A stretch of DNA of 62,948 nucleotides from Calditrichia bacterium (GTDB lineage Bacteria > Calditrichota > Calditrichia > Calditrichales > Calditrichaceae): the NCBI GenBank assembly GCA_026983775.1, contig JALSTK010000073.1, positions 1 through 62,948 of the forward strand, written 5' to 3'. The notes beneath the pieces were generated by a model. It saw only the letters and a list, made by a program, of their open reading frames with translations, searched no databases and was not told the origin of the DNA. Shown in pieces: positions 27,129 to 38,952 of the stretch. Within the stretch, counting starts at the first letter, position 1. Every line of letters starts with the position of its first letter. A program made the position numbers and the translations under genes.

Positions 27129-28364
27129 TCAGTTTAAAACGATTCCAAACTGGTAACAACCGATGGATAGAATGATTCCAATCGCAAATATCCACAGAAT
27201 ATTAAGTTTAAGATAGCGGACGGCCAGGAAAGCGCCCACCGCCCAGATATAGGGTAAGGGTGAAGTGAGAGCTACCTTGCCCAGACTCAGCAAGACAAAG
27301 AGCAGCATACCTGTGAAGGAGGCCAGGACACCTTGAAGTGCCTGCCGGATGGGTCGCAGGTGTTTAATCTTGCCATAGATCTCGGAAACAATTAAAGTAT
27401 AAAAGAAAGACGGAAAGAACATGCCGAAGGTGGCCAGAGCACTGCCGGCTATGCCGCCCACTTTATAACCGATAAAAGTTGCGGTAATAAGGAAAGGTCC
27501 GGGGGTGATCTGCCCCATGGCAATACCGTCGGCAAATTGTTTCATGGTTAACCAGTGATGGGAGATGACCGCTTCCTGTTGTAGAAGGGGCATGATAGTA
27601 AACCCGCTACCGAAAGCCACGGCCCCTATTTTAAACATGGATAGTAAAAGTTTTGCCGAAGATTTCTCGAATATCAGTCCCGCTGCGATAATAGTAAAAA
27701 ATCCCGCGCCGGTGACAACGATTGCAAATATACGGTGACTCATTTTGCCGGGAATCATGGCAACATCCGAACCGTCCTCTTTCTCTCCTCTCTTAATATC
27801 CCGCAGCAAAGCAATTCCCAAAAAGATGGCCAGAACAATCACATAGAAAGCATTTACTTTAAAGAGCATTAGTAAAAAAGCCAATCCGCCAACGAGCGCT
27901 CCAGCTTTTGTTTTCAGATAGCGTTCACTGAAATCAATGAAAATATGAGCCACGATGCCTGTGACCATGGCTTCCAGAGCAATAAACAAAGGATGGATCC
28001 ATGATACCAGCCCGTAACTGAAATAAACCCACGATAAGACTACCATAAGTACATACGATGGCAGTAAAAAAACAAAACTGCCCAAAAGCGCACCGCTGAA
28101 TCCTCGGGTACGGTAAGCGCCATAGGTAGCCAGATTATACATAATGGGGCCGGGATACATTTGCACCATGCCCAGGCCCTCATCCAACTGCCGGCGAGTA
28201 AGCCATTTTTTGCCGATGATCAGCGCCTTAAGCTGCTGCAGGATGGCCATGCCATAGGCAGTTAAACCGATTTTAAAGAAAGCCCCCGTAAGTTTCCACA
28301 AAGAAGGCTCGGACGATTCTTGATTGCTATTTTTCATTTTCTTGCTTTCAATCTTTCTCCTCAT
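27129..28364 (-). CDS. chrA: ChrA-family chromate/anion transporter
   Basis: Inner-membrane CHR-family protein, 411 aa, with two homologous halves (about residues 20-200 and 215-405), the normal long-chain architecture. Each half has its family signature, GLGMVQMYPGPIMYNLATYGAY and the matching DGIAMGQITPGPFLITATFIGY region. Characterised members expel chromate using the proton-motive force; sulfate analogues are also handled. It is the last gene of the six-gene operon that starts at 31979, 9 nt after the ferredoxin gene. The link to the operon suggests export or exchange of an oxyanion. Confidence 0.9.
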   Translation of the reverse strand: MRRKIESKKMKNSNQESSEPSLWKLTGAFFKIGLTAYGMAILQQLKALIIGKKWLTRRQLDEGLGMVQMYPGPIMYNLATYGAYRTRGFSGALLGSFVFLLPSYVLMVVLSWVYFSYGLVSWIHPLFIALEAMVTGIVAHIFIDFSERYLKTKAGALVGGLAFLLMLFKVNAFYVIVLAIFLGIALLRDIKRGEKEDGSDVAMIPGKMSHRIFAIVVTGAGFFTIIAAGLIFEKSSAKLLLSMFKIGAVAFGSGFTIMPLLQQEAVISHHWLTMKQFADGIAMGQITPGPFLITATFIGYKVGGIAGSALATFGMFFPSFFYTLIVSEIYGKIKHLRPIRQALQGVLASFTGMLLFVLLSLGKVALTSPLPYIWAVGAFLAVRYLKLNILWIFAIGIILSIGCYQFGIVLN

Positions 28365-28373
28365 GGTTTCAAT

Positions 28374-29024
28374 TTAAGAAATTCTGTTTTCAGAAACGAG
28401 GACAACGCCGTTTTCCTTAAAAATAGTTTTAATTTTTTGCAAATAGGGCGTTACATCGCCATATTCGGTTGAGACCAGTCGGAATCGGCAATATGAAGGC
28501 GCTTTTTCTTTCCAGCAACTTTTTAAACCGGGCGTCTCGATGTTGAGGTACAAAACATCGCACGGATCGTTCTTGATGGCCTCGTATATTTTGGGAATGA
28601 TCCGGCGTTCACCAAAATGCCCGGTGGCTTCGATTTCGATGTTTGTCATTACGGAATTTAAAATGGATTCCGCTTTGGCCCGCGCTTCTTCGTACTCCTT
28701 TTTTGTTTTTTTCTCTTTGGCAATTTGACGCACTACTTTTAGAATCTTGTATTCTTTCTCCAATTTCTGCACGAATTCTTTGGGAGGAAATTCGATGGCC
28801 GCCGTGGGACAAATGGTTGCGCAGGTGGTACAGCCGACCAAACAATTGTAGGGCCGCTCGACGAGAGCTTTTCGGGTAGCATCCTCATACTCGAACACTT
28901 CCCGGCCACAGCTTACATAACAAAGCTGACAACCAATGCATTTTTCTTCCACAATCTTCGGGAACCACTCGATTTCCATGCGAGGAATCCCATGCCATTG
29001 GGTTTTGCTTAAATCTTTAGCCAT
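28374..29024 (-). CDS. Ferredoxin-like protein, two [4Fe-4S] clusters plus C-terminal domain
   Basis: Cysteines are at C29-x2-C32-x2-C35-x3-C39 and C61-x3-C65-x2-C68-x3-C72 (the last followed by Pro), the pattern of an 8Fe-8S bacterial ferredoxin with a non-standard spacing in cluster two. Residues about 85-216 form an extra domain with two further cysteines (LKSCWKEKAPSYC) that I do not recognise. A GGAGGCGGAG ribosome site precedes the ATG. It sits between the UspA gene and chrA and presumably feeds electrons to a redox step of the operon; the partner is unknown. Confidence 0.8.
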   Translation of the reverse strand: MAKDLSKTQWHGIPRMEIEWFPKIVEEKCIGCQLCYVSCGREVFEYEDATRKALVERPYNCLVGCTTCATICPTAAIEFPPKEFVQKLEKEYKILKVVRQIAKEKKTKKEYEEARAKAESILNSVMTNIEIEATGHFGERRIIPKIYEAIKNDPCDVLYLNIETPGLKSCWKEKAPSYCRFRLVSTEYGDVTPYLQKIKTIFKENGVVLVSENRIS

Positions 29025-29095
29025 TGCTCCGCCTCCATATACTTTAACGTGGAAATGCTTACCGCTAAGAAGGTAACGAATCGTTAGTTGACGAA

Positions 29096-29584
29096 TTAGT
29101 GTGTTGAACTATTCGGATGGTTCTTAGGCTTAACCACCAAAACCGGTACATTGCCATGGGCCAGCACACGACCGGTGGTGCTTCCGAACAGTTTTTCCAC
29201 AAAACCGTGTTCACCGTGCGAGCCCATAACGATTAGCGATACGTGTAAATTATCCGCCGCTTGAATGATTTTTTGATAAGGGATACCCACTTCTACAATA
29301 AGTTCCGTTTTAAACGAAAAATGTGTAATCTCTTTTTCCAACTCTTTTAAACGGTCAAATCCATTTTCCAGCATCCGTTTAAGAACATCATGCCTGGATT
29401 TTTCCAGCGGCTCTTCCGGATGAATCTGGGCCTCCACTTCCCATTGAACATCCACATCGCGCTCGTCGTACACGTGCAGTAAAATCACTTCTTCCGTCCC
29501 GGCTTCTTTCAATTTTTTTACATATTCCAAAGCCTCTTCGGCCGAGGCAGAGAAATCGGTGGGATACAGAATTTTCCGAAACAT
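29096..29584 (-). CDS. Universal stress protein (UspA family)
   Basis: Cytosolic alpha/beta protein, 162 aa. The typical start RKILYPTDFSASAEEAL and the ATP-binding motif MGSHGEHGFVEKLFGSTTGRVL (G-2x-G-9x-G-S/T) are both present. It starts 2 nt after the permease stop, so it is translationally linked to that gene. In many bacteria Usp proteins accompany transporters and modulate them under stress; here that is an inference from the operon. Confidence 0.92.
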   Translation of the reverse strand: MFRKILYPTDFSASAEEALEYVKKLKEAGTEEVILLHVYDERDVDVQWEVEAQIHPEEPLEKSRHDVLKRMLENGFDRLKELEKEITHFSFKTELIVEVGIPYQKIIQAADNLHVSLIVMGSHGEHGFVEKLFGSTTGRVLAHGNVPVLVVKPKNHPNSSTH

Positions 29585-29586
29585 GA

Positions 29587-30606
29587 TCAGGCTCCTTCGC
29601 TGTTTATGTTCGTTTCCAAAATCGCGTCTTGTTTGTTCCGTTCGGCGAATTTAGAGAATAGCTTGTACCAAATGGAAGCAAAAGGCATTTGGAACAACAT
29701 GCAGGGCACAACCCCCAACAAGGCCATCGGACCGAAAGCAGCAATGGCCAGGCCCATGGCGATCGATAAGTTTTTCGTTGAAAATCCGTAGGTGATGGGA
29801 ATGGCCTTTTCGTGCGGTTCCTTTAATATTTTAATCGCAAAATAATAGGAAAAAGGATAAGCTACACCGTAATAAATCAGCATACCCAGCGCCGGGAAAA
29901 TAATAAGTCCCGGTTCTCTGTAAATCAGATGCGCTTGAACACTCATGGCAACGAAAACCATGTACAGGGCCAATAAAGAAGAAATAAGATGGGAAATAGG
30001 CATGATTTTAACAATGCCTTTCCAGGTATATTTTTTGCTGACCGCCTTTTGCGTGAGATAGGCCAGGACCAAGGGAATAACGACCATGACAATTATTTTA
30101 ATAAGCAATGTGGTGGTATGGACATCTACCCGACTGCCGACAAATAATTTCATTCCCAACGGTACCCAAATAATGGAAACCAAAAGGGTCACCGTTTGAA
30201 TCGCCGTAGCCAAACCGATGTTCGCCCCCAGAATGCCCGTCCAATAGGTAATCATACCACCGGGAGGCACAATGGAAGCTAACAGTAATCCCGTATATAA
30301 ATTGGGATTCTTAGTAAAAACCGTTGCAACGGGAATCATCAGTAAGGGCGCAACCAATAGCGAAAGAATGCTGCCGTAAATCATCCCTTTGGGATAAATA
30401 AATGCATTTTTCAATTCATCCATGCGCATGGTAATCAGCATGGCATAAATCATGATAATAACCGAGGGCAAAATGGAAGCCTTGATGAAATGAATTTGTG
30501 CTCTATCCAATTGCAAACCTATCCAATAGCCGAAGACCAACACCGCCAAAATGATGGCGGGCATATATTTTTTTATGAAAGCATCCAAACGTTTAATCAT
30601 TGCCAT
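29587..30606 (-). CDS. BASS/Acr3-superfamily permease
   Basis: Polytopic inner-membrane protein with about 10 hydrophobic segments, 339 aa, of the bile acid:sodium symporter/arsenical resistance-3 superfamily (SIVPPGGMITYWTGI segment and VAYPFSYYFAI end). Acr3 arsenite pumps have a conserved Cys in the fourth membrane segment. That position region here reads SIVPPGGM without Cys, so I do not call it Acr3. Linked to the DGC protein (13 nt upstream) and UspA (2 nt downstream). The substrate is unknown, possibly a metalloid or sulfur anion. Confidence 0.8.
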   Translation of the reverse strand: MAMIKRLDAFIKKYMPAIILAVLVFGYWIGLQLDRAQIHFIKASILPSVIIMIYAMLITMRMDELKNAFIYPKGMIYGSILSLLVAPLLMIPVATVFTKNPNLYTGLLLASIVPPGGMITYWTGILGANIGLATAIQTVTLLVSIIWVPLGMKLFVGSRVDVHTTTLLIKIIVMVVIPLVLAYLTQKAVSKKYTWKGIVKIMPISHLISSLLALYMVFVAMSVQAHLIYREPGLIIFPALGMLIYYGVAYPFSYYFAIKILKEPHEKAIPITYGFSTKNLSIAMGLAIAAFGPMALLGVVPCMLFQMPFASIWYKLFSKFAERNKQDAILETNINSEGA

Positions 30607-30619
30607 GAATCACTTCCTT

Positions 30620-31036
30620 TCATTTAGGAACGAGCTCGTGCTTTTTCTTTTCCATTAGTTCCTGCGCCAGTTTTTTTACCTTTTCAATCACATCGCGGGC
30701 AAGCAGTTCAACAGTTTCTTGATCATAATCCAGACCAGGTATTTTTTCCACACCGTAATCTTCATCCGGAGCGATACGCAGAGCCGGAACAAAACCACCC
30801 AATCTGATCGTTTCCAATACGCAGGCCTCCTTGCAGCCATCAATAACGACAATCGCGTCAGCCTCCTGGAATTTGCCCGCCGGTTTCAGCCCCGGAAAGA
30901 TAGCCGGCAGACAATTGATATTGGCATAAGGCAGAGCCTTATCCACGCGTTTGGCAATTTCCGCCGACATTTGGCCGATATTGGAACGCCCGGCACAATT
31001 GGCGATGGAAATTTTAATTTCAAGTGGTTGCTTCAT
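30620..31036 (-). CDS. DGC-domain putative zinc-binding protein
   Basis: 138-aa soluble protein. The diagnostic DGC motif (Asp-Gly-Cys, Cys68) is followed by Cys72; Cys14 (IANCAGRSN) and Cys42 (INCLPA) complete four conserved cysteines that should bind a metal or form disulfides. This family (PF08859-like) has no known reaction but recurs in metal and metalloid resistance loci. It starts behind a GGGGAG ribosome site and lies 40 nt after the outer-membrane protein gene. A cytosolic metal chaperone or sensor for the adjacent permease is a reasonable guess. Confidence 0.8.
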   Translation of the reverse strand: MKQPLEIKISIANCAGRSNIGQMSAEIAKRVDKALPYANINCLPAIFPGLKPAGKFQEADAIVVIDGCKEACVLETIRLGGFVPALRIAPDEDYGVEKIPGLDYDQETVELLARDVIEKVKKLAQELMEKKKHELVPK

Positions 31037-31076
31037 ACGGTTCTTCTCCCCTTCTTTTATGTTTGTTTAATGATAT

Positions 31077-31979
31077 TCACAATAAAAAATATAAACCCAG
31101 CCACGTTTCATAATCGGCGCTGAATTTAACCCTGGCATCTACGGTAACCGGCACAACCCATTGAACCAAAAAGGTACGTCGCAATCGGTACTGAAGCGCC
31201 GGAATAAATTGGAAAAGGTGGTAGCTGGGATTAACCCTGTCCCGGGCAATGGATTTGTAAAGAAATGTGCTTTCGGCAATGAAGCGTCGGTTTAAATTGT
31301 AAGCCGTACTCCACGACAAACTGACCACATCCCCCAAATCCATATGTTGCTTATTTTTACCGCGGGCAATGTAAAAAGCCGACCAACGCAGGTCCCATTT
31401 GCCCGTTCCCCATTCCGGCATCAGGGCAAAACCGGCATCGAAGCTGCCCGTACCAAGCGGCATTTTTGTAAGGGCAAGATGTCCGTCATCGGCCTTTCCT
31501 GTCGGGGATTTGGTAAACAGCAATCCGGAGAACAGAAACCGATGTGTTTTGTTGAAGTAAAATTTGTAAAGCAATGCACCGATTACATCGCCGATACCCT
31601 CGCCGGATTTTTCTATTTTAAGCGATTTAAAACGTTTGTGAATGTAAGGCAGATTTACGATGGCCGTAAAGCGATTTAGGATGCCATAGCGGACTTTTAA
31701 AATGTAAGAATCTGCCGTAAATTCCGTCCCGCCGGGCAAACTCGTCATTTTGCCTGTTTTGGAATTGAGCATTCGGGTAAAATGAGGGAAAACCGCGTAC
31801 CCGCGAAAAACCCAGTGCCCCCGGGGTAAAGTCTTGGCCGGAATGCCGTACAAAGGAGGGCGGGGCCTCAGTTTTTGTGCCGATGCCAAATGAATATGGA
31901 AAGCCAACAACAGAATCAAAACGAGACAGAAAATTCTTAATTTACTCATATTCCGCTTCTTCTCTATAGTGAACAACAT
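31077..31979 (-). CDS. Putative outer-membrane beta-barrel protein
   Basis: 300-aa exported protein with a signal peptide ending near LASAQ, then alternating aromatic/hydrophobic strands and a final Leu-Phe-type end (WLGLYFLL), which suits BAM insertion. The pattern (GIGDVIGALLYKFY, LPRGHWVFRG and similar) resembles Phenol_MetA_deg-type transporter-like barrels. First gene of the operon; the start at 31979 has AAGGGAAGGA before it, and an alternative ATG at 31949 would give a shorter signal. It may provide an exit or entry pore for the operon's substrate. Exact family uncertain. Confidence 0.6.
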   Translation of the reverse strand: MLFTIEKKRNMSKLRIFCLVLILLLAFHIHLASAQKLRPRPPLYGIPAKTLPRGHWVFRGYAVFPHFTRMLNSKTGKMTSLPGGTEFTADSYILKVRYGILNRFTAIVNLPYIHKRFKSLKIEKSGEGIGDVIGALLYKFYFNKTHRFLFSGLLFTKSPTGKADDGHLALTKMPLGTGSFDAGFALMPEWGTGKWDLRWSAFYIARGKNKQHMDLGDVVSLSWSTAYNLNRRFIAESTFLYKSIARDRVNPSYHLFQFIPALQYRLRRTFLVQWVVPVTVDARVKFSADYETWLGLYFLL

Positions 31980-32466
31980 CGTTCCTTCCCTTTCTTAGCC
32001 AGTTCCAAATTTCGGTTGACGAGCATTCCGGTTGATATATACTCAAGAATAGCCGTATCCGGGAATTCCGCCAACCTTTATTCTTATATATGCGCATATT
32101 GGCATTAATATAAGCATAAAAATCAGTTTGTCAATACCTGAATAGATTTTCTGAATCTACATGAGAGATATTTTATTTTTTTCTCTAGTTTTTATGCTTC
32201 TTTCTTCAACGGTATGGGTCCAGCAAGTCAAGCCACTTTTAAGTAAAGGTTCTACCCGTCGGATTTCATCATAAGTTGTTACTCTATTTTGCAATTGTAC
32301 AAGTTTACAATTATAAAGTAAAAAAACTTTCTTAATTGTGTTTCATAAAACGCTTGCTCATATCAAACGCACACTCGTTTCTTTTTTTATTTGCTTGAAC
32401 AATTATGCAATAACTTGCAAAGAAACGAAAAATTTTTAAGCTGTTAGCCCGGTTAAATGAAAAACC
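31980..32466. other. Intergenic region with operon promoter
   Basis: 487 nt upstream of the six-gene operon and downstream of the NifX-like gene. It holds the ArsR-type candidate operator (32087-32113). Further upstream, around 32401-32420, ATTATGCAATAACTTGCAA contains half-sites resembling the operator before the arsR gene at 33247, but this is weak. Confidence 0.5.
32087..32113 (-). promoter_or_regulatory. Candidate ArsR operator/promoter of the six-gene operon
   Basis: Plus-strand TATATGCGCA then TATTGGCATT then AATATAA. It aligns with 37501-37528 at 24 of 28 columns, including the uninterrupted blocks TATATGCGC, TATTG and AATATAA. It contains the palindrome ATATGCGCATAT and lies about 108 nt before the outer-membrane protein start, oriented as at the second site. 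The other copy sits directly upstream of an arsR gene, so the natural reading is a shared binding site. Confidence 0.65.
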
Positions 32467-32886
32467 TTAATCCGTGCGTTCTTCAACCAGATTGTGAATC
32501 TTTTTCTCTATCAATGCCGAAACGGATTCTTCGATGTCCTGATAATCGGTTAAGATCACATTCAATCCGGCAGCCTTAAAACTCTCGTAAGCTCCGGAAC
32601 CCATGCCGCCGGCGATTAAAACATCGCAGTCGGCAATCTCAGCGGCCATCATGGAATGACGTCCCCGGGCCTCGGCACCGTAGCCATGGCGTCCCTGCGG
32701 ATCACGATGCTCCTGTTCATCCGGCCTGGCCTGCTGCTGCGGGGCAAAATGACCGGTACCCCGTTCCCGTAGCGCACTTTCGGTTACAACTCCATTCTCT
32801 ATCGTAACAATTTTATAATAGCGTGAGCGGCCGAAGTGTTGACTAATCGTTCGACCGTCATTGGTAACAATGGCAACTTTCATCAT
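32467..32886 (-). CDS. NifX/NifB-type (MTH1175-like) dinitrogenase-cofactor domain protein
   Basis: About 139-aa soluble protein of the Nitro_FeMo-Co fold. MKVAIVTNDGRTISQHFGRS is the typical start, and IADCDVLIAGGMGSGAYESFKAAGLNVI the typical second half. The His-rich middle common in this group appears as a Gln/His/Arg-rich stretch. The start is ATG at 32886 (or the next codon) behind GGGAGAG; longer forms overlap arsR and are less likely. It follows arsR by 28 nt. No nif genes are here, so a nitrogenase role is unlikely; a metal or Fe-S cluster carrier is the better guess. Confidence 0.85.
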   Translation of the reverse strand: MMKVAIVTNDGRTISQHFGRSRYYKIVTIENGVVTESALRERGTGHFAPQQQARPDEQEHRDPQGRHGYGAEARGRHSMMAAEIADCDVLIAGGMGSGAYESFKAAGLNVILTDYQDIEESVSALIEKKIHNLVEERTD

Positions 32887-32914
32887 GTACTCTCCCATTC
32901 TATTAATAAGATAT

Positions 32915-33247
32915 TTAAAAAAATTCTTGAAATCGATTATACCAGTCTTTAGAAATCTGTGTAGCGGTTTCAATAATTTGAAAAACCCGCTGATCGGCAA
33001 TTGCAAAATAGGATGCAACGCCCTCCTTACGGGCCGTCACCAGTCCCACATTACGTAACAGCATCAGATGGCGGGAAATCACCGAAGCATCGAGATGTAA
33101 TTCATCAATAATTTGCTGGGAGCCTTTTTCCCCTTCTTTTAATAATCCGATGATTTTTAAGCGTTGATCGCTGGCCAGGGCCATAAAAAAACGGCTGCGG
33201 GGATCCGTCATGGGCCCCATCATTCCCCTCTTCATTCCTCTCGGCAT
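32915..33247 (-). CDS. ArsR-family transcriptional regulator (no metal-site cysteines)
   Basis: 110-aa winged-helix repressor with helix-turn-helix LHLDASVISRHLMLLRNVGLV and wing segment VTARKEGVASYFAIAD. It has no cysteine, so it is not the classic arsenic/cadmium type. The N-terminus is Met/Arg rich (MPRGMKRGMMGPM), perhaps an unusual copper- or redox-sensing tail, but that is speculative. It probably represses its own operon with the NifX-like gene through the palindrome 14 nt upstream. Confidence 0.9.
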   Translation of the reverse strand: MPRGMKRGMMGPMTDPRSRFFMALASDQRLKIIGLLKEGEKGSQQIIDELHLDASVISRHLMLLRNVGLVTARKEGVASYFAIADQRVFQIIETATQISKDWYNRFQEFF

Positions 33248-33261
33248 AATTGTTCCATTTC

Positions 33262-33285
33262 ATTATTGCGTAAATGTGCAATAAT
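33262..33285 (-). promoter_or_regulatory. Palindromic candidate operator of arsR (33247)
   Basis: Perfect 8-bp arms ATTATTGC and GCAATAAT, 8 nt apart, ending 14 nt before the start codon. The size and position fit autoregulation by the ArsR protein it precedes. It differs from the two sites at 32087 and 37501, so two separate ArsR specificities are likely. Confidence 0.6.
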
Positions 33286-33443
33286 ATAAATTAAAAGGAG
33301 ACCGAAATCAACCCTTGCGTGTTTTTTAATATAAAATAAAAGAATAATTTACAGTGCGTAGACTCATACCCTACGTTCGATCCGAACTTCATCCGTCGAA
33401 AAGGGATCAGAGTTGTCCCCGCAAACCTTCCCTTTTAAAAAAT

Positions 33444-33681
33444 GGCTCTACCGGGTTTCTTATGAAGCCGTATATTAACTGAAGACGGATAAAAGGAATG
33501 AAACAATTTTTTATGGTTTCGTTCATCTTGTATTTAAAGACAATAGTATCCGAAGGATACGAATATGAGTAGCCACCGGCTTCGCTCCTGCCCGGCGGCT
33601 AACGGGTGTGGCTACTCATATTGCATCACTTCGTGATGATTTAAGGATGCGGCGTTTAACCACAAATATCCCGGTAGAGCC
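33444..33681 (+). mobile_element. Non-autonomous ISL3-type miniature element, copy B (238 bp)
   Basis: Ends GGCTCTACCGGG and, inverted, CCCGGTAGAGCC. Flanks are TAAAAAAT on the left and AAAAAAAT on the right (7 of 8 identical, but A-rich). It lacks about 146 nt present in copy C; the missing segment is bounded in copy C by the direct repeat CCACAGGCTT at 39245 and 39390, so B looks like a deletion product. The 14-nt inner inverted repeat ATATGAGTAGCCAC is complete. Confidence 0.85.
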
Positions 33682-33735
33682 AAAAAAATTATACTCGGTA
33701 TAACGAGATATATCGGGATATGCCGGACTCGTTCC

Positions 33736-34092
33736 TTAATGCAGTACGATCATCTTCCGGGAGATAGAAATACCGCTGGAAGTAGACAAACGATAGATAT
33801 ACACACCGCTTGCCAGACGTTGGGCGGTAAAGTTTACCCGGTATCGACCGGAGGGGAAATTGCCGCGGATCAGGGTAGCCAATTCCCTTCCGTTAAGGTC
33901 ATATACTTTCAAACTCAGGGTAGTTTGCACCGGAAGTTCAAAGGCTATTACCGTACTCCGGGAGCCTTCCATCGTGGAGATGCCCCTACCGAAGGGATTC
34001 GGATAGTTTTGGAATAAATGAAATTGCCTGATGACTGAAGAATTCGGTTCTTTAACTCCCGTATAGACCGGGAAGGCAATTCCCTGCCCTCT
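33736..34092 (-). pseudogene. Out-of-frame T9SS sorting domain of the DUF3160 protein
   Basis: In the frame ending at 33736 the sequence reads TGVKEPNSSVIRQ, then FHLFQNYPNPFGRG, then a complete type A domain (LPVQTTLSLKVYDLNGREL and so on) to KMIVLH-stop. The upstream DUF3160 frame runs into nonsense (GASPRWKAPGVR) over the same bases. A single -1 shift around 34060-34095 would join them. Either a frameshift mutation, programmed slippage, or a sequencing error. Confidence 0.8.
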
Positions 34093-36314
34093 GCATATTT
34101 TCTTCCCCGGGCATCACTTAAAAAAATGTTGACCCAGTCCGGCCGTTCAGGTAAGCGGCCGTTCTCAACTCGTGTCGCCCACTCTTCATCCGTCAGTCGA
34201 TTAAAATTATCGGTGACTGTTTGGTAATAGGACATAACCGGCCCCACAAAAGCAAGCGGCAGAGCATCCGAGTCCGGTGCATTCGCCAGGAAAACACCGA
34301 GATTAACCTTTCCGGTAGCTACGTGTAAAATTTTGCCTACCGGATTCCCCTCAAAATCGGTGGGTTGAGTGTGGACGTCGGCAATGATATAATTAAAACA
34401 GGCGGCATCTTCCGGATAAAAATAAAGCGAAGAATACCATCCCGTATAAGGGGGTTCCCCACTCTCCATCCCCTCGAATAACATCTTTTTCAGCCATTGC
34501 CGCTCTTCTTCGGAAAGAGGGACATGTTGTAATTCCTTGCGGGCTATGGCTTCCAATTTTTGCATCACATCCCGGAATTTGGGAAAGAAATGATGAATCC
34601 GGGCCATTTCGATTCCGTTTTCGGGAAAGTCTGCAAAATAGTTTTCCGCCTTTTCAGCAAACCCGGCCAGTCGGGCATACAGCTCCGGTACCGGTTCAAC
34701 CAATGAGTAAGGATACGAACAACCCGTTGCCCCGGTATAGGATTGTTTGGCGTAGAGAAGATTATCATGGCGCAATTGGGCCCAGGAGGCCAGTTGGGCA
34801 TTCATTCTACTTTGATGCCAGGCCGCACTTTGCATAAAAAAGGGCCGATCCTTTTGATTTTGCGGGGGATTCAGAGCGCGAATGGAGTTCAGCCACACAT
34901 TATACAGCGACAGATTCCAAAATGAGGCATTATAAGAATCGACCAGATAGCGCAGGGCGTCCAATTGAGAAGCGTATTTGTATTGATCAATTTCGTTTTT
35001 CAGGAGATACAGGGCGTCATCATTGCCCAGTACAAATAAAATATCCAGAGGGTCCGGCAAGGGACGCCATATTTTTTGGCCCTGATACACAATTCGATCA
35101 AAAACCACATTGAAAAAGATATAGGAATCAAGAATGAACCGTTGGCCCATCAGACGAAACGAGACAGGCAGAGGAGCCGGTTCGCTGTTAAAGGGGTTAA
35201 CCATCATAATCTGGGAGAGGATTTTTTGATCGGAACCGGGATAATTTATCAGGGCCTTTTGATAATCCTCATAGACAGAATCCGTTAACAATTGGCGGAC
35301 GTCAGTCAGGTCTAAGGAATCCAGTAATTCTTTATATTCCCGAGGAGTCAGATTATCCGATTCACCGACCATAAAGGTAATGATTTCATCGTTCTGATTC
35401 AGGACAGGGCGCGACCGGGCCCTATCTAATAATTCGTTCAGTAGAAAGGAACCCAGATTCATGCGCTGTATTTGTTCCTTGCTCCAGGGTTCTTCATACG
35501 GATTTTCCGGGGGCGGAGTTAGCAAGAAATCAATACGCCCCAGCCACATCATGGCTTTAAAATAGTCGCGCAGTTCATCCCGTGTGTAGTGTCCCCTTAC
35601 CTTAAACTGGCTAAAATCCAGGGTACGGTAATGATCGGAGAAGAGCGGCAGGGAAATAACCTGCTCGTCCTGGATGGCCTGCCAAATCTGATCTACCTGG
35701 TTTTGATCCGTGAATTGAGGGGATAATTCCCGACCGTTGATCAGAGAGCGAAAGATGGTCACATACAGATCCACATCCCGGAGTGCCGGGCCGAGATCAT
35801 TCTCGGAATCATATTTGTCTTTCAGCGCCGGAAAGGATGCATAAAGATTTTCTGCCAATTCGATTAAGTTCGGTTTTAAGACACTGATCTCCAGGGCGGC
35901 GAGAATTTGATCGTACGACATATGCAGGGCATGAAGAATGGCGTCGGAAGAGATAAATACCGGCAAATCATTGGCGTAAATTTGATGAAAGGCCTTGCCG
36001 AAACAATCATAATTCAGTCGTTCGCTTACCACAAAATAATTCTGCTTAAGCAGTTCCAGCTCCTCCGAAGTCAAAGCGAATTTTATTTTGATCGAATCGA
36101 GGTATTTAAAGCGATTTAAATCGGTATTCGCCTGGCGGCCTTTATAGTAGGGGGCGGATAAGGGAAACTGACTTTGTAATTGTTCGTAAGTTAAATCCTG
36201 ATTTTGTTGCAGAAAGTTCTCATAGTCATCAACGGAAAATTCACTCTGGCCCACAATGGGGGACTGCCAGATACCCAATAACATCGCCACCAGTAAAATG
36301 ATGAACGATTTCAT
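33948..36314 (-). CDS. Secreted DUF3160 protein, C-terminus shifted out of frame
   Basis: 788 codons. Signal peptide (about residues 1-22, ending IVGQS), then the DUF3160 domain with NYFVVSERLNYDCFGKAFHQIY and the typical FISSDAILHALHMSYDQIL segment, continuing to about residue 745. The function of this family is unknown; it occurs in secreted proteins of FCB and archaeal genomes. Beyond about residue 745 the reading becomes implausible, while a T9SS domain is intact in another frame. So the gene as sequenced encodes an unsorted protein unless ribosomes shift. Single gene between a miniature element and a thioredoxin-like gene. Confidence 0.85.
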   Translation of the reverse strand: MKSFIILLVAMLLGIWQSPIVGQSEFSVDDYENFLQQNQDLTYEQLQSQFPLSAPYYKGRQANTDLNRFKYLDSIKIKFALTSEELELLKQNYFVVSERLNYDCFGKAFHQIYANDLPVFISSDAILHALHMSYDQILAALEISVLKPNLIELAENLYASFPALKDKYDSENDLGPALRDVDLYVTIFRSLINGRELSPQFTDQNQVDQIWQAIQDEQVISLPLFSDHYRTLDFSQFKVRGHYTRDELRDYFKAMMWLGRIDFLLTPPPENPYEEPWSKEQIQRMNLGSFLLNELLDRARSRPVLNQNDEIITFMVGESDNLTPREYKELLDSLDLTDVRQLLTDSVYEDYQKALINYPGSDQKILSQIMMVNPFNSEPAPLPVSFRLMGQRFILDSYIFFNVVFDRIVYQGQKIWRPLPDPLDILFVLGNDDALYLLKNEIDQYKYASQLDALRYLVDSYNASFWNLSLYNVWLNSIRALNPPQNQKDRPFFMQSAAWHQSRMNAQLASWAQLRHDNLLYAKQSYTGATGCSYPYSLVEPVPELYARLAGFAEKAENYFADFPENGIEMARIHHFFPKFRDVMQKLEAIARKELQHVPLSEEERQWLKKMLFEGMESGEPPYTGWYSSLYFYPEDAACFNYIIADVHTQPTDFEGNPVGKILHVATGKVNLGVFLANAPDSDALPLAFVGPVMSYYQTVTDNFNRLTDEEWATRVENGRLPERPDWVNIFLSDARGRKYAEGRELPSRSIRELKNRILQSSGNFIYSKTIRIPSVGASPRWKAPGVR

Positions 36315-36420
36315 GGCATTCTCCTCAAGATAGTAACTTATAAAAAGAGCACTAACGATTTAAATATAGAGGATGCGATTGCGGAAATCAAGGGACAATA
36401 AAATTATATTTCGGGTATGG

Positions 36421-37002
36421 TCAGTCTTCTATCCAGGGCCACATGCGGGCTTCGGGGCTTTGGGGATATAATTCCCGAATCTGTCGCATATGTGCCCGGA
36501 ATTGTTTATTATCCCAGGTCTGCAGATAGTTTATCATGCCCATGCGAAAGAGGAGTGCGGAAGCACGGGGATTGTCCGCGAAAAGGTCCAGACCTTCCTG
36601 CAGAACCTGTTTAGCGTGGGAATATTGGCCACGGGGAATCAGATACTCGGCCAGTCCGATACGCAGTACTACCCGAAAATCCTCGATCTCTAAAAATCCG
36701 GCTTGTTGAAAATAGGACTGACCTTTATAGTCCAGCACATAGAAAGACGGTGTCCAGACAGCTGCATATCGAGATCGTATCTTTCGATCCTTACGGATAT
36801 CCTGGCGCAGGCAGATAAACCAGTCGTGCATTTCCTTTTTCACCATAAGATCGGGATAAACGGAAGTATATAATTTTTTACACCCGGAGCAAGACTCGCG
36901 ATGAAATTGAAGCAGAACGGGTTTTCGTTCTTTGGCAGATTGTTTGAGAGCCGACTCATATTCGAAGAGCCAGTTCTGCCAGATATCGGTTTCCATAATC
37001 AT
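36421..37002 (-). CDS. Thioredoxin-like protein with TPR-like C-terminal half
   Basis: 193 aa. The N-terminal thioredoxin fold has a redox CxxC (Cys38-Ser-Gly-Cys41 in HRESCSGCKKL) and the cis-Pro segment VWTPSFYVL. The C-terminal half (about 110-193) is helical with TPR-like repeats. No signal peptide, so cytosolic. It follows the cysteine-type arsR by 56 nt on the same strand and is probably in its operon. A role in thiol supply or reduction linked to metalloid stress is likely but unproven; it is not ArsC. Confidence 0.82.
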   Translation of the reverse strand: MIMETDIWQNWLFEYESALKQSAKERKPVLLQFHRESCSGCKKLYTSVYPDLMVKKEMHDWFICLRQDIRKDRKIRSRYAAVWTPSFYVLDYKGQSYFQQAGFLEIEDFRVVLRIGLAEYLIPRGQYSHAKQVLQEGLDLFADNPRASALLFRMGMINYLQTWDNKQFRAHMRQIRELYPQSPEARMWPWIED

Positions 37003-37058
37003 TCCTTACCTGGATACCGGAAAAAGCCAAAAAGAGAACATAGTAATCGTAAAATGAA

Positions 37059-37484
37059 TTAACCATGAAATTTCGAACTGTTTCTCTTTCCTTTTTCCTG
37101 TTTACTTAAGGATCCCTCTTTCTCGATGAGGGCATAGCCAAGCACACAACGTCCGGCTTCACGTTTGGCCAACCGGTCATTGAGCCGCTTAATATCTTCG
37201 CCATATTTTTGTTTAAAATGCTTTTCAATGACCGCCATCAGGTCGGCCGTGCAAGGCGAAGCGTTTCGATCGAGTGAATAATAAATCCATGTTCCAAAGC
37301 GTTCGGTAGTCATCAAACCGATATTTTTAAGAACGGTAAGATGACGGGAAATCTGATATTGAGGTACAAGCATGGCGTCGGTCATTTCACAGACACAAAT
37401 CGCCTCTTTACTCTGTACAAACAGATTAACTAATCGCAGACGGGTTTCGTCACCCAACGCTCTGAACAATCTTAAAAAATCCAT
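37059..37484 (-). CDS. ArsR-family regulator with As(III)-type cysteine pair
   Basis: 141-aa winged-helix repressor. Cys30 and Cys32 in the AICVCEMTD segment correspond to the arsenite site ELCVCDL of the classical ArsR; the HTH is VPQYQISRHLTVLKNIGLM. The C-terminus extends about 30 residues beyond the core and has two more cysteines. Arsenite or another thiophilic ion would release it from DNA. Its own promoter carries the operator that is repeated upstream of the six-gene operon. Confidence 0.92.
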   Translation of the reverse strand: MDFLRLFRALGDETRLRLVNLFVQSKEAICVCEMTDAMLVPQYQISRHLTVLKNIGLMTTERFGTWIYYSLDRNASPCTADLMAVIEKHFKQKYGEDIKRLNDRLAKREAGRCVLGYALIEKEGSLSKQEKGKRNSSKFHG

Positions 37485-37500
37485 ATCGTTCCATTCCCAT

Positions 37501-37528
37501 TATATGCGCTTATTGACATGTAATATAA
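37501..37528 (-). promoter_or_regulatory. Candidate operator upstream of the As-type arsR
   Basis: Plus-strand TATATGCGCT then TATTGACAT then GTAATATAA, beginning 16 nt before the arsR start codon. On the gene strand a TATAAT lies at its edge, so binding would block RNA polymerase. Near-copy of 32087-32113 (24 of 28 aligned columns). Confidence 0.65.
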
Positions 37529-37590
37529 TTATTAAGAGTTATTTGTCAAATATTTTTAGGATAGTTGGAACGGATTTGTAAACTATCGAC

Positions 37591-38952
37591 TTACTCCAGA
37601 TACTTTTGCGGCTTACGCGGAGTCGGCTTTCTTCCGTAAAAGAAGTCATCCATTTTTAAGGCCATCCACTGAAAGGCACTGGATTGTTTCAATCCTTTCC
37701 GAACCAGATTATGAAGCAGGTTATCAGGATGGGAATAGGGGCAGACCGCTACACAACGGGCACAATCCGTACCGACTTCCGTCCAGTACGTATAACACTT
37801 TTCCTGATCGATTTTCCAGCGGACGACCCCGTTTATCTCCTTAGGATCATCAAACGAGATGGCTTTGCTCGGACAGGCATCGGCACATTTTTTACAACGG
37901 GCACAAAATTCCTGTACGGTCCATTCTTCCCTACCCTGCTCTGTTAGTAAAGGGTAATCGGTAGTGACGACACCGATTCGTACCCGTGGTCCAAGAGTAG
38001 GAGTCATCAGTAACCCCATACGACCCAGTTCCCCCAATCCGGCATCCCGGGCTACCAGGGGACAGACGACACGGTAATTTCCATCGATGTGCGCTCGGGC
38101 CGAATAACCGAGCTGTTTGATGAATTCCGCGATTTGTACGGCAATGGCCCCGGCATCCATATATTTTCTGGCCGACTCCATGACCGTCGGCCCGTAAGGA
38201 GCATAGTCCAGACTGGTTTTATCCATTTCTACCGTGAAGGCAACAGCAACCGTATGAGGTAATTGCACTTCCCGGCCGAAATGTGGGCCCCTGCCCACAT
38301 GGGAATACAGGTGATAGTCGCGCAAAGTAGTAATACCCACGGAATAAGCCCCGAGCTTTTTCGCCCAATTTTTTATAAAACGGCTCACCTGACCGGAAGG
38401 AAGGTGAACAGGTTCCACGGATATCGTTTCATTTTCTACCAGACTATGCAGGGCTGTGACCGAAATAAAGCTGGCATTGGCAGCGGCAAACATCAACGGG
38501 TGGTAAAAACGGCTTCCTTTTCCCAGTAATCCGGGATTGGCCCTGAAACCGTCGTCTATGGATTTATATTCCGGGTGCGACCGGTAGTAAGTACGATAAC
38601 GTTCCGTTCCCTTTTCATATAAGCGGCGTGAAAACATGATATCCCGTTCATCGATCCGTCCTGCAGGAATACGATCCACATCAATTCTTGTCCGGTGGAA
38701 AGGGAACAGCAAATAAATTCCGGTTAATACGGTCATTGCTATTAAGATGGTAAGAATCGTTTGTTGTCCGCTAAAAGAGACGAAAGCAAAAAAAGCATAG
38801 GGCAATGGTAAAAGTATGGCAAGAATCAATGCTCTGAGTGCAGCACGCTGTTCATGTTCCAAAATTGATTGAATCGTATAGACCAGAAAGAAGATGAAGA
38901 TCATTCCGGCCAGCAGATAGCTGATAACAGACAATACATTAGTCGAGAACAA
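37591..38952 (-). CDS. Reductive dehalogenase-like Fe-S protein (membrane anchored)
   Basis: 453 aa. Three N-terminal membrane segments (about residues 5-90), then the RdhA-like signature IDERDIMFSRR and YYRSHPEYKSIDDGFRANPG, a cobalamin-domain-like middle (THTVAVAFTVEMD region), and two [4Fe-4S] motifs, CARCKKCADACP and CARCVAVCPYSHP with an upstream partner Cys in DQEKCYTY. True RdhA proteins have a Tat signal and a separate RdhB anchor; here the anchor is fused and no Tat motif is seen. The electron acceptor is unknown. TTG start with AAGGGA about 10 nt upstream. Confidence 0.75.
   Translation of the reverse strand: MFSTNVLSVISYLLAGMIFIFFLVYTIQSILEHEQRAALRALILAILLPLPYAFFAFVSFSGQQTILTILIAMTVLTGIYLLFPFHRTRIDVDRIPAGRIDERDIMFSRRLYEKGTERYRTYYRSHPEYKSIDDGFRANPGLLGKGSRFYHPLMFAAANASFISVTALHSLVENETISVEPVHLPSGQVSRFIKNWAKKLGAYSVGITTLRDYHLYSHVGRGPHFGREVQLPHTVAVAFTVEMDKTSLDYAPYGPTVMESARKYMDAGAIAVQIAEFIKQLGYSARAHIDGNYRVVCPLVARDAGLGELGRMGLLMTPTLGPRVRIGVVTTDYPLLTEQGREEWTVQEFCARCKKCADACPSKAISFDDPKEINGVVRWKIDQEKCYTYWTEVGTDCARCVAVCPYSHPDNLLHNLVRKGLKQSSAFQWMALKMDDFFYGRKPTPRKPQKYLE

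Follow-up and report, generated by a model that had tools for sequence, protein, structure and literature searches.

A candidate ArsR operator common to arsR and an interrupted metalloid-type operon in a Calditrichia bacterium

The described systems that come closest to the locus reported here are the classical ars operon (arsR-arsC-acr3/arsB), the ArsR regulons that reach past a single promoter, and the ArsP-type ars clusters that carry genes for DGC-domain proteins, ferredoxins and CcdA. ArsR proteins that act beyond their own operon or on several promoters have been reported in Agrobacterium tumefaciens 5A (PMC7965956) and for ArsR1 and ArsR2 of Pseudomonas putida (PMC7994332). A survey of more than 700 ars-operon transporters, drawn from genomes up to 2015, found two chromate transporters and no non-Acr3 class of BASS permease (PMC4435449). 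No paper tying DGC-domain proteins to arsenic was found in the library that we searched, and a paper on cadmium in Thermococcus describes the induction of ArsR and permease genes with nothing linking them to the gene set below. Here we describe a locus in which a predicted ArsR repressor gene, which we call arsR1, and a six-gene operon each follow a promoter with a candidate operator of the same kind. It lies in the window, by which we mean the whole 62,948-nucleotide stretch of DNA that was analysed (contig JALSTK010000073.1 of the Calditrichia bacterium assembly GCA_026983775.1).

Two matching sites in the same orientation, at 32087-32113 and 37501-37528, had been picked out in the original prediction, and both are present at these positions on the minus strand, each made up of a promoter and an operator. 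A hand alignment with a single gap makes them identical in 25 of 28 columns (24 had been counted before). Their pairwise similarity spans some 49 bp, TTGACA to CATATA, and takes in the -35 box, the -10 box and the operator. Since the -35 and -10 boxes are part of this similarity, some of the 28-column match is -10 box. The predicted operator is the 24-bp palindrome directly 3′ of the -10 box. The two TTGACA-16-TATATT arrangements, at 32134-32107 and 37549-37522 on the minus strand, are the two best sigma-70-like sites within 32000-37650.

The upstream sites of relatives define a perfect 24-bp palindrome with the consensus ATGCTTATATGC-GCATATAAGCAT. A symmetric 24-bp matrix trained on the relatives' sites alone ranks position 32082, before the six-gene operon, first in the window (24.3 bits) and position 37496, before arsR1, second (13.5 bits); the higher score was never attained in 8 Mb of simulated DNA. 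A motif search of the 4.03 Mb genome gave two exact matches to the 15-base pattern TATATGCGCNTATTG and zero at one mismatch, so that the site is anything but abundant, and at two mismatches the pattern sinks into background (23 matches in total, with 20 for the reversed control). The 12-base core ATATGCGCATAT has its sole exact genome copy inside the operator before the six-gene operon. With at most one mismatch allowed, it is found in 10 places, and a wider regulon in this genome was rejected because the 8 besides the two sites are all within open reading frames. In an upstream scan of ArsR relatives, run with one genome left out at a time, four further genomes have the palindrome 35-43 bp upstream of their arsR1 orthologues (55-70% identity). 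It also stands upstream of two more distant ArsRs (loci L059 and L061) and is absent upstream of ArsRs with less than 34% identity. At L061 (1429-3333), in a genome outside the class, the ArsR with this type of operator heads genes for a small thioredoxin-like protein, a SLAC1/TehA-type anion channel and an ArsP-type permease.

ArsR1 itself scores above the cut-offs of PF01022 (27.2 bits, cut-off 22) and NF033788 (73 bits, cut-off 55). The arsenite-type cysteine pair that had been noticed in it is C30/C32 in the motif ICVCEM, ahead of the recognition helix, and is kept in the orthologues. With a winged-helix domain, this cysteine pair and a predicted palindromic operator overlapping its own promoter, the protein has the makings of a type-1 ArsR. 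The thioredoxin-fold gene that follows, trx, is probably co-transcribed with arsR1.

Synteny in relatives brings arsR1 and the operon together. In a genome of the same family (G012), arsR1 (71% identity), trx (61%), barrel (71%), dgc (83%), sbf (81%), usp (71%) and the ferredoxin gene lie in a single run, and both arsR1 and the barrel gene are preceded by a site. The ferredoxin gene of this run (L085, 4243-4551) is decayed: its frame is broken and cysteines have been lost. At the edge of contig C123 there is a partial copy in a better state of preservation. The Latescibacteria contig NATK01000085 carries arsR1 (70%), barrel, dgc and sbf in that order at 62-72% identity. In genome G013 one contig holds arsR1-trx and, 6-7 kb away, a barrel gene preceded by a site of its own; permease, dgc, usp and ferredoxin genes form a run on a separate contig. 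In genome G037 an operator precedes both the arsR1 orthologue (70%) and the arsP gene that it heads, and an Acr3-type gene comes after them. In the window, arsR1-trx and the six-gene operon are parted by 4.4 kb of other genes, a DUF3160 gene and a pair formed by a second arsR (arsR2) and a NifX-like gene. Because arsR1 heads the same operon in relatives, we read the window as showing an operon that has been interrupted and has two promoters, and the earlier description of this arsR as distant needs amending. The two parts were probably one unit ancestrally, split here by inserted genes, and ArsR1 is predicted to be the six-gene operon's own regulator. That one ArsR operator serves both arsR and the operon, as had been proposed, thus agrees with a motif unique to the two promoters and with the sites and synteny of relatives, and the site was indeed conserved before operon genes in G012 and G013.

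The six operon genes are co-directional, with intergenic gaps of 2-71 bp, and their composition is as originally predicted (Table 1). The DGC protein carries the DGC motif and scores 58.9 bits against PF08859, its conserved cysteines being taken from an alignment of 20 sequences, and its predicted model is a confident flavodoxin-like alpha/beta fold (predicted local distance difference test score, pLDDT, 93.9) with no PDB match below an E value of 0.001. The ferredoxin model is of moderate confidence (pLDDT 80); its C-terminal domain, to which Pfam assigns no name, resembles the N-terminal domain of MJ1480, a ferredoxin/ACT-like fold. No plasmid homologues of the ferredoxin or the DGC protein were found, and a search of viral contigs with the ferredoxin returned no relative.

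Table 1. Coordinates of the predicted promoters, operators and genes in the window.
Feature	Position	Strand	Remarks
ChrA-type chromate transporter, final operon gene	27129..28364	-	PF02417; TIGR00937 217.5 bits, cut-off 171.7
Two-[4Fe-4S] ferredoxin with C-terminal ferredoxin/ACT-like domain	28374..29024	-	eight invariant cysteines
Universal stress protein (Usp)	29096..29584	-	PF00582
BASS/SBF-family permease	29587..30606	-	PF01758
DGC-domain protein	30620..31036	-	PF08859; four near-invariant cysteines C14, C42, C68, C72
Outer-membrane beta-barrel protein	31077..31979 (likely start 31949)	-	PF13557; 71% in G012, 63% in Latescibacteria
Candidate operator O2, 24 bp, ATGCCAATATGCGCATATATAAGA	32082..32105	-	between -10 box and six-gene operon start; 24.3 bits, best in window
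Predicted promoter P2	32107..32134	-	TTGACA-16-TATATT, 11/12 consensus positions
DUF3160 protein	33948-36314		between arsR1-trx and operon; 563 bits
Thioredoxin-fold (CSGC) and TPR protein (trx)	36421..37002	-	PF13899; next after arsR1 in G012 (61%) and G013 (62%)
arsR1, ArsR/SmtB repressor	37059..37484	-	PF01022 and NF033788 above cut-off; CVC pair C30/C32; C-terminal GRCVLG
Candidate operator O1, 24 bp, ATGTCAATAAGCGCATATAATGGG	37496..37519	-	5′ of arsR1; 13.5 bits, second in window; placed relative to arsR as in relatives
Predicted promoter P1	37522..37549	-	TTGACA-16-TATATT, 11/12 consensus positions

The permease had been called BASS/Acr3-like, of which the first half stands and the second does not. 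It scores 77.8 bits against PF01758 (cut-off 24.3) and its PDB matches are bile-acid symporter homologues, but against the Acr3 model TIGR00832 it reaches 62 bits where the cut-off is 282.8. A conserved cysteine in the fourth transmembrane segment is essential for transport by Acr3 (PMC9671657); at this position the window permease reads PPGGM and the genome's own Acr3 reads ARCIAM. An Acr3 identity was rejected on account of the score, far under the cut-off, and the missing cysteine. Paralogues of the permease at L091, L092 and L097 carry a cysteine at the Acr3 cysteine position. The true Acr3 (424.9 bits) is encoded elsewhere in the genome, on contig C117, in an arsR-arsC-arsP-acr3 run with arsC-like and ArsP-like genes.

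The DGC and ferredoxin genes place the operon in wider company. Across 30 sampled genomes an ars-type marker lies within 1.5 kb of 17 of 30 DGC loci and of 0 of 21 control loci, an enrichment that is an indication and not a calibrated test, the controls all coming from the window's own genome. The markers at the 17 loci were an arsP-type permease (10, some of the matches weak), arsR (6), acr3 (1), arsC (1) and possible arsM (2, called from a short motif). Related ferredoxins adjoin arsR, arsP or DGC genes at L120, L121, L123 and L134, and ArsP is the usual permease in other such clusters. Since DGC and ferredoxin genes recur near ars-type genes, the window operon appears to belong with the ArsR/permease/ferredoxin/DGC clusters, with BASS replacing ArsP, and the resistance or redox look first ascribed to the gene set gains support. 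SufB/SufC-type iron-sulfur (Fe-S) assembly genes were also seen beside a related ferredoxin-reductase gene and chrA in G013 (L122, 878-4352) and beside two DGC genes in genome G367 (L137, 679-3321), which hints that DGC/ChrA genes may be connected with Fe-S repair.

The explanation that best fits the locus as a whole, and that we hold to be probable, is that ArsR1 represses both promoters, a thiol-seeking metalloid releases them, and the operon handles the metalloid. We take the circuit to be shared because the motif occurs nowhere in the genome except at these two promoters, and because of the operator conservation and the synteny. As a type-1 repressor, ArsR1 would bind the 24-bp palindrome between the -10 box and the translation start, over the transcription start, and would so repress both its own arsR1-trx promoter and that of the barrel-DGC-BASS-usp-ferredoxin-chrA genes, until a thiol-seeking metalloid, of which As(III) and Sb(III) are the likeliest, binds to C30/C32 and frees the two. 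The Cys4 DGC protein may bind or shuttle the metalloid, reducing power could come from the thioredoxin-fold protein and the ferredoxin, the BASS permease and ChrA would export anionic species over the inner membrane, and the barrel would pass anionic forms through the outer membrane. This proposal starts from the observed gene set and order, the promoter-like sites, the conservation of the operator with arsR1, the synteny of relatives and the occurrence of DGC and ferredoxin genes beside ars-type ones; from these we infer DNA binding, the inducer, the division of labour and the substrate, the last being the least certain step.

Several observations weigh against this explanation. The relatives that matter most are draft genomes in fragments, and the gene set is patchy, with arsR1 found in 3 of 15 family genomes. 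The arsR1 operator is symmetric at just 5/12 and weak by score alone: in simulated DNA some 30 sites of 13.5 bits are expected per genome by chance, so that its assignment leans also on position and synteny. The predicted permease is without the cysteine reported as essential in Acr3, and because of the separate arsR-arsC-arsP-acr3 run, the six-gene operon may serve a different substrate.

The absent cysteine and the Acr3 that lies elsewhere with its own ArsR, ArsC and ArsP-like genes also suit an account in which the same ArsR1 circuit answers to an effector other than arsenite. The anion exported by the BASS permease and ChrA would then be a different one, such as thioarsenate, a selenium or sulfur species, chromate or molybdate, and redox damage would be repaired or reduced by the ferredoxin and thioredoxin proteins. 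ChrA belongs to an oxyanion transporter family, and its relatives adjoin the SufB/SufC-type genes in G013, which fits as well. We nevertheless regard this account as unlikely, given that the CVC pair is retained in the ArsR1 clade, whose G037 member heads arsP close to an Acr3-type gene, and that relatives of the DGC protein and ferredoxin adjoin arsR and arsP. It is highly improbable that a different ArsR paralogue occupies the six-gene operon's operator in the cell: arsR2 (32915-33247) lies closer, in the stretch that separates the two parts and 1 kb from the promoter of the six-gene operon, but it has a different inverted repeat of its own and no CVC pair, for which it was rejected as the regulator, and in other genomes the arsR1 operator goes with the arsR1 orthologues. 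A recent promoter duplication or a generic strong promoter, with no specific repressor binding, would suit the half or so of the 49-bp similarity that is -35/-10 sequence and the weak symmetry of the arsR1 site, but is scarcely credible when relatives conserve the palindrome 3′ of the -10 box, before both arsR1 and barrel in G012, and the motif is unique in the genome.

With repression of both promoters by ArsR1 as the preferred explanation, the locus might represent a route of metalloid detoxification that has not been described before: a Cys4 DGC carrier and a dedicated ferredoxin would prepare a form of the metalloid for export by a BASS permease that has no Acr3-type cysteine, with a single ArsR in control of two promoters; we put this forward tentatively, as a somewhat doubtful proposal. 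The uncharacterised DGC Cys4 family and its associated ferredoxin gain a testable role, BASS permeases outside Acr3 become possible metalloid exporters, and the operator can be used to find similar regulons in other genomes.

Among the genes between and beside the two parts, arsR2 and a NifX/NifB-type gene make up a separate pair (32467-33285), with the inverted repeat ATTATTGC-N8-GCAATAAT upstream at 33262-33285, and such a pair also precedes an SBF permease on contig C514 of G012 (L093). The C-terminal sorting-type sequence of the DUF3160 protein appears to run on in another frame near 33740-34020. At 37591-38952 the window encodes a reductive-dehalogenase-like iron-sulfur protein that, at 153.9 bits, is slightly under the TIGR02486 cut-off of 160.35.

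Like the classical ars operon, the locus has a CVC-type ArsR, a predicted autoregulated promoter and a permease in the Acr3 superfamily; unlike it, the locus is without arsC, its permease fails the Acr3 model and a second promoter lies 5.4 kb away. No arsC, acr3 or arsB was found within 27129-37484, and by that measure this is not a classical ars operon. The original claim of a non-standard combination is sound thus far, but ferredoxin and DGC genes with ArsR recur elsewhere, and chromate transporters do, rarely, occur in ars operons (PMC4435449). What sets the locus apart from the multi-target ArsR regulons is that its second predicted target, the ferredoxin/DGC/BASS/ChrA operon, probably used to be joined to arsR, and that the candidate operator is a clear palindrome at the promoter. 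The ArsP-type clusters with DGC, ferredoxin and CcdA (L120, L121, L123, L136, L150) likewise combine ArsR, a Cys4 DGC protein, a related ferredoxin, a permease and thioredoxin-type partners, but their permease is ArsP (PF03773) where that of the window is BASS, and the window operon adds the barrel, Usp and ChrA and is without ccdA, arsC and arsM. Judged by its predicted genes, the set in the window is a variant of the recurring ArsR/permease/ferredoxin/DGC arsenic-type cluster, and not an unprecedented one.

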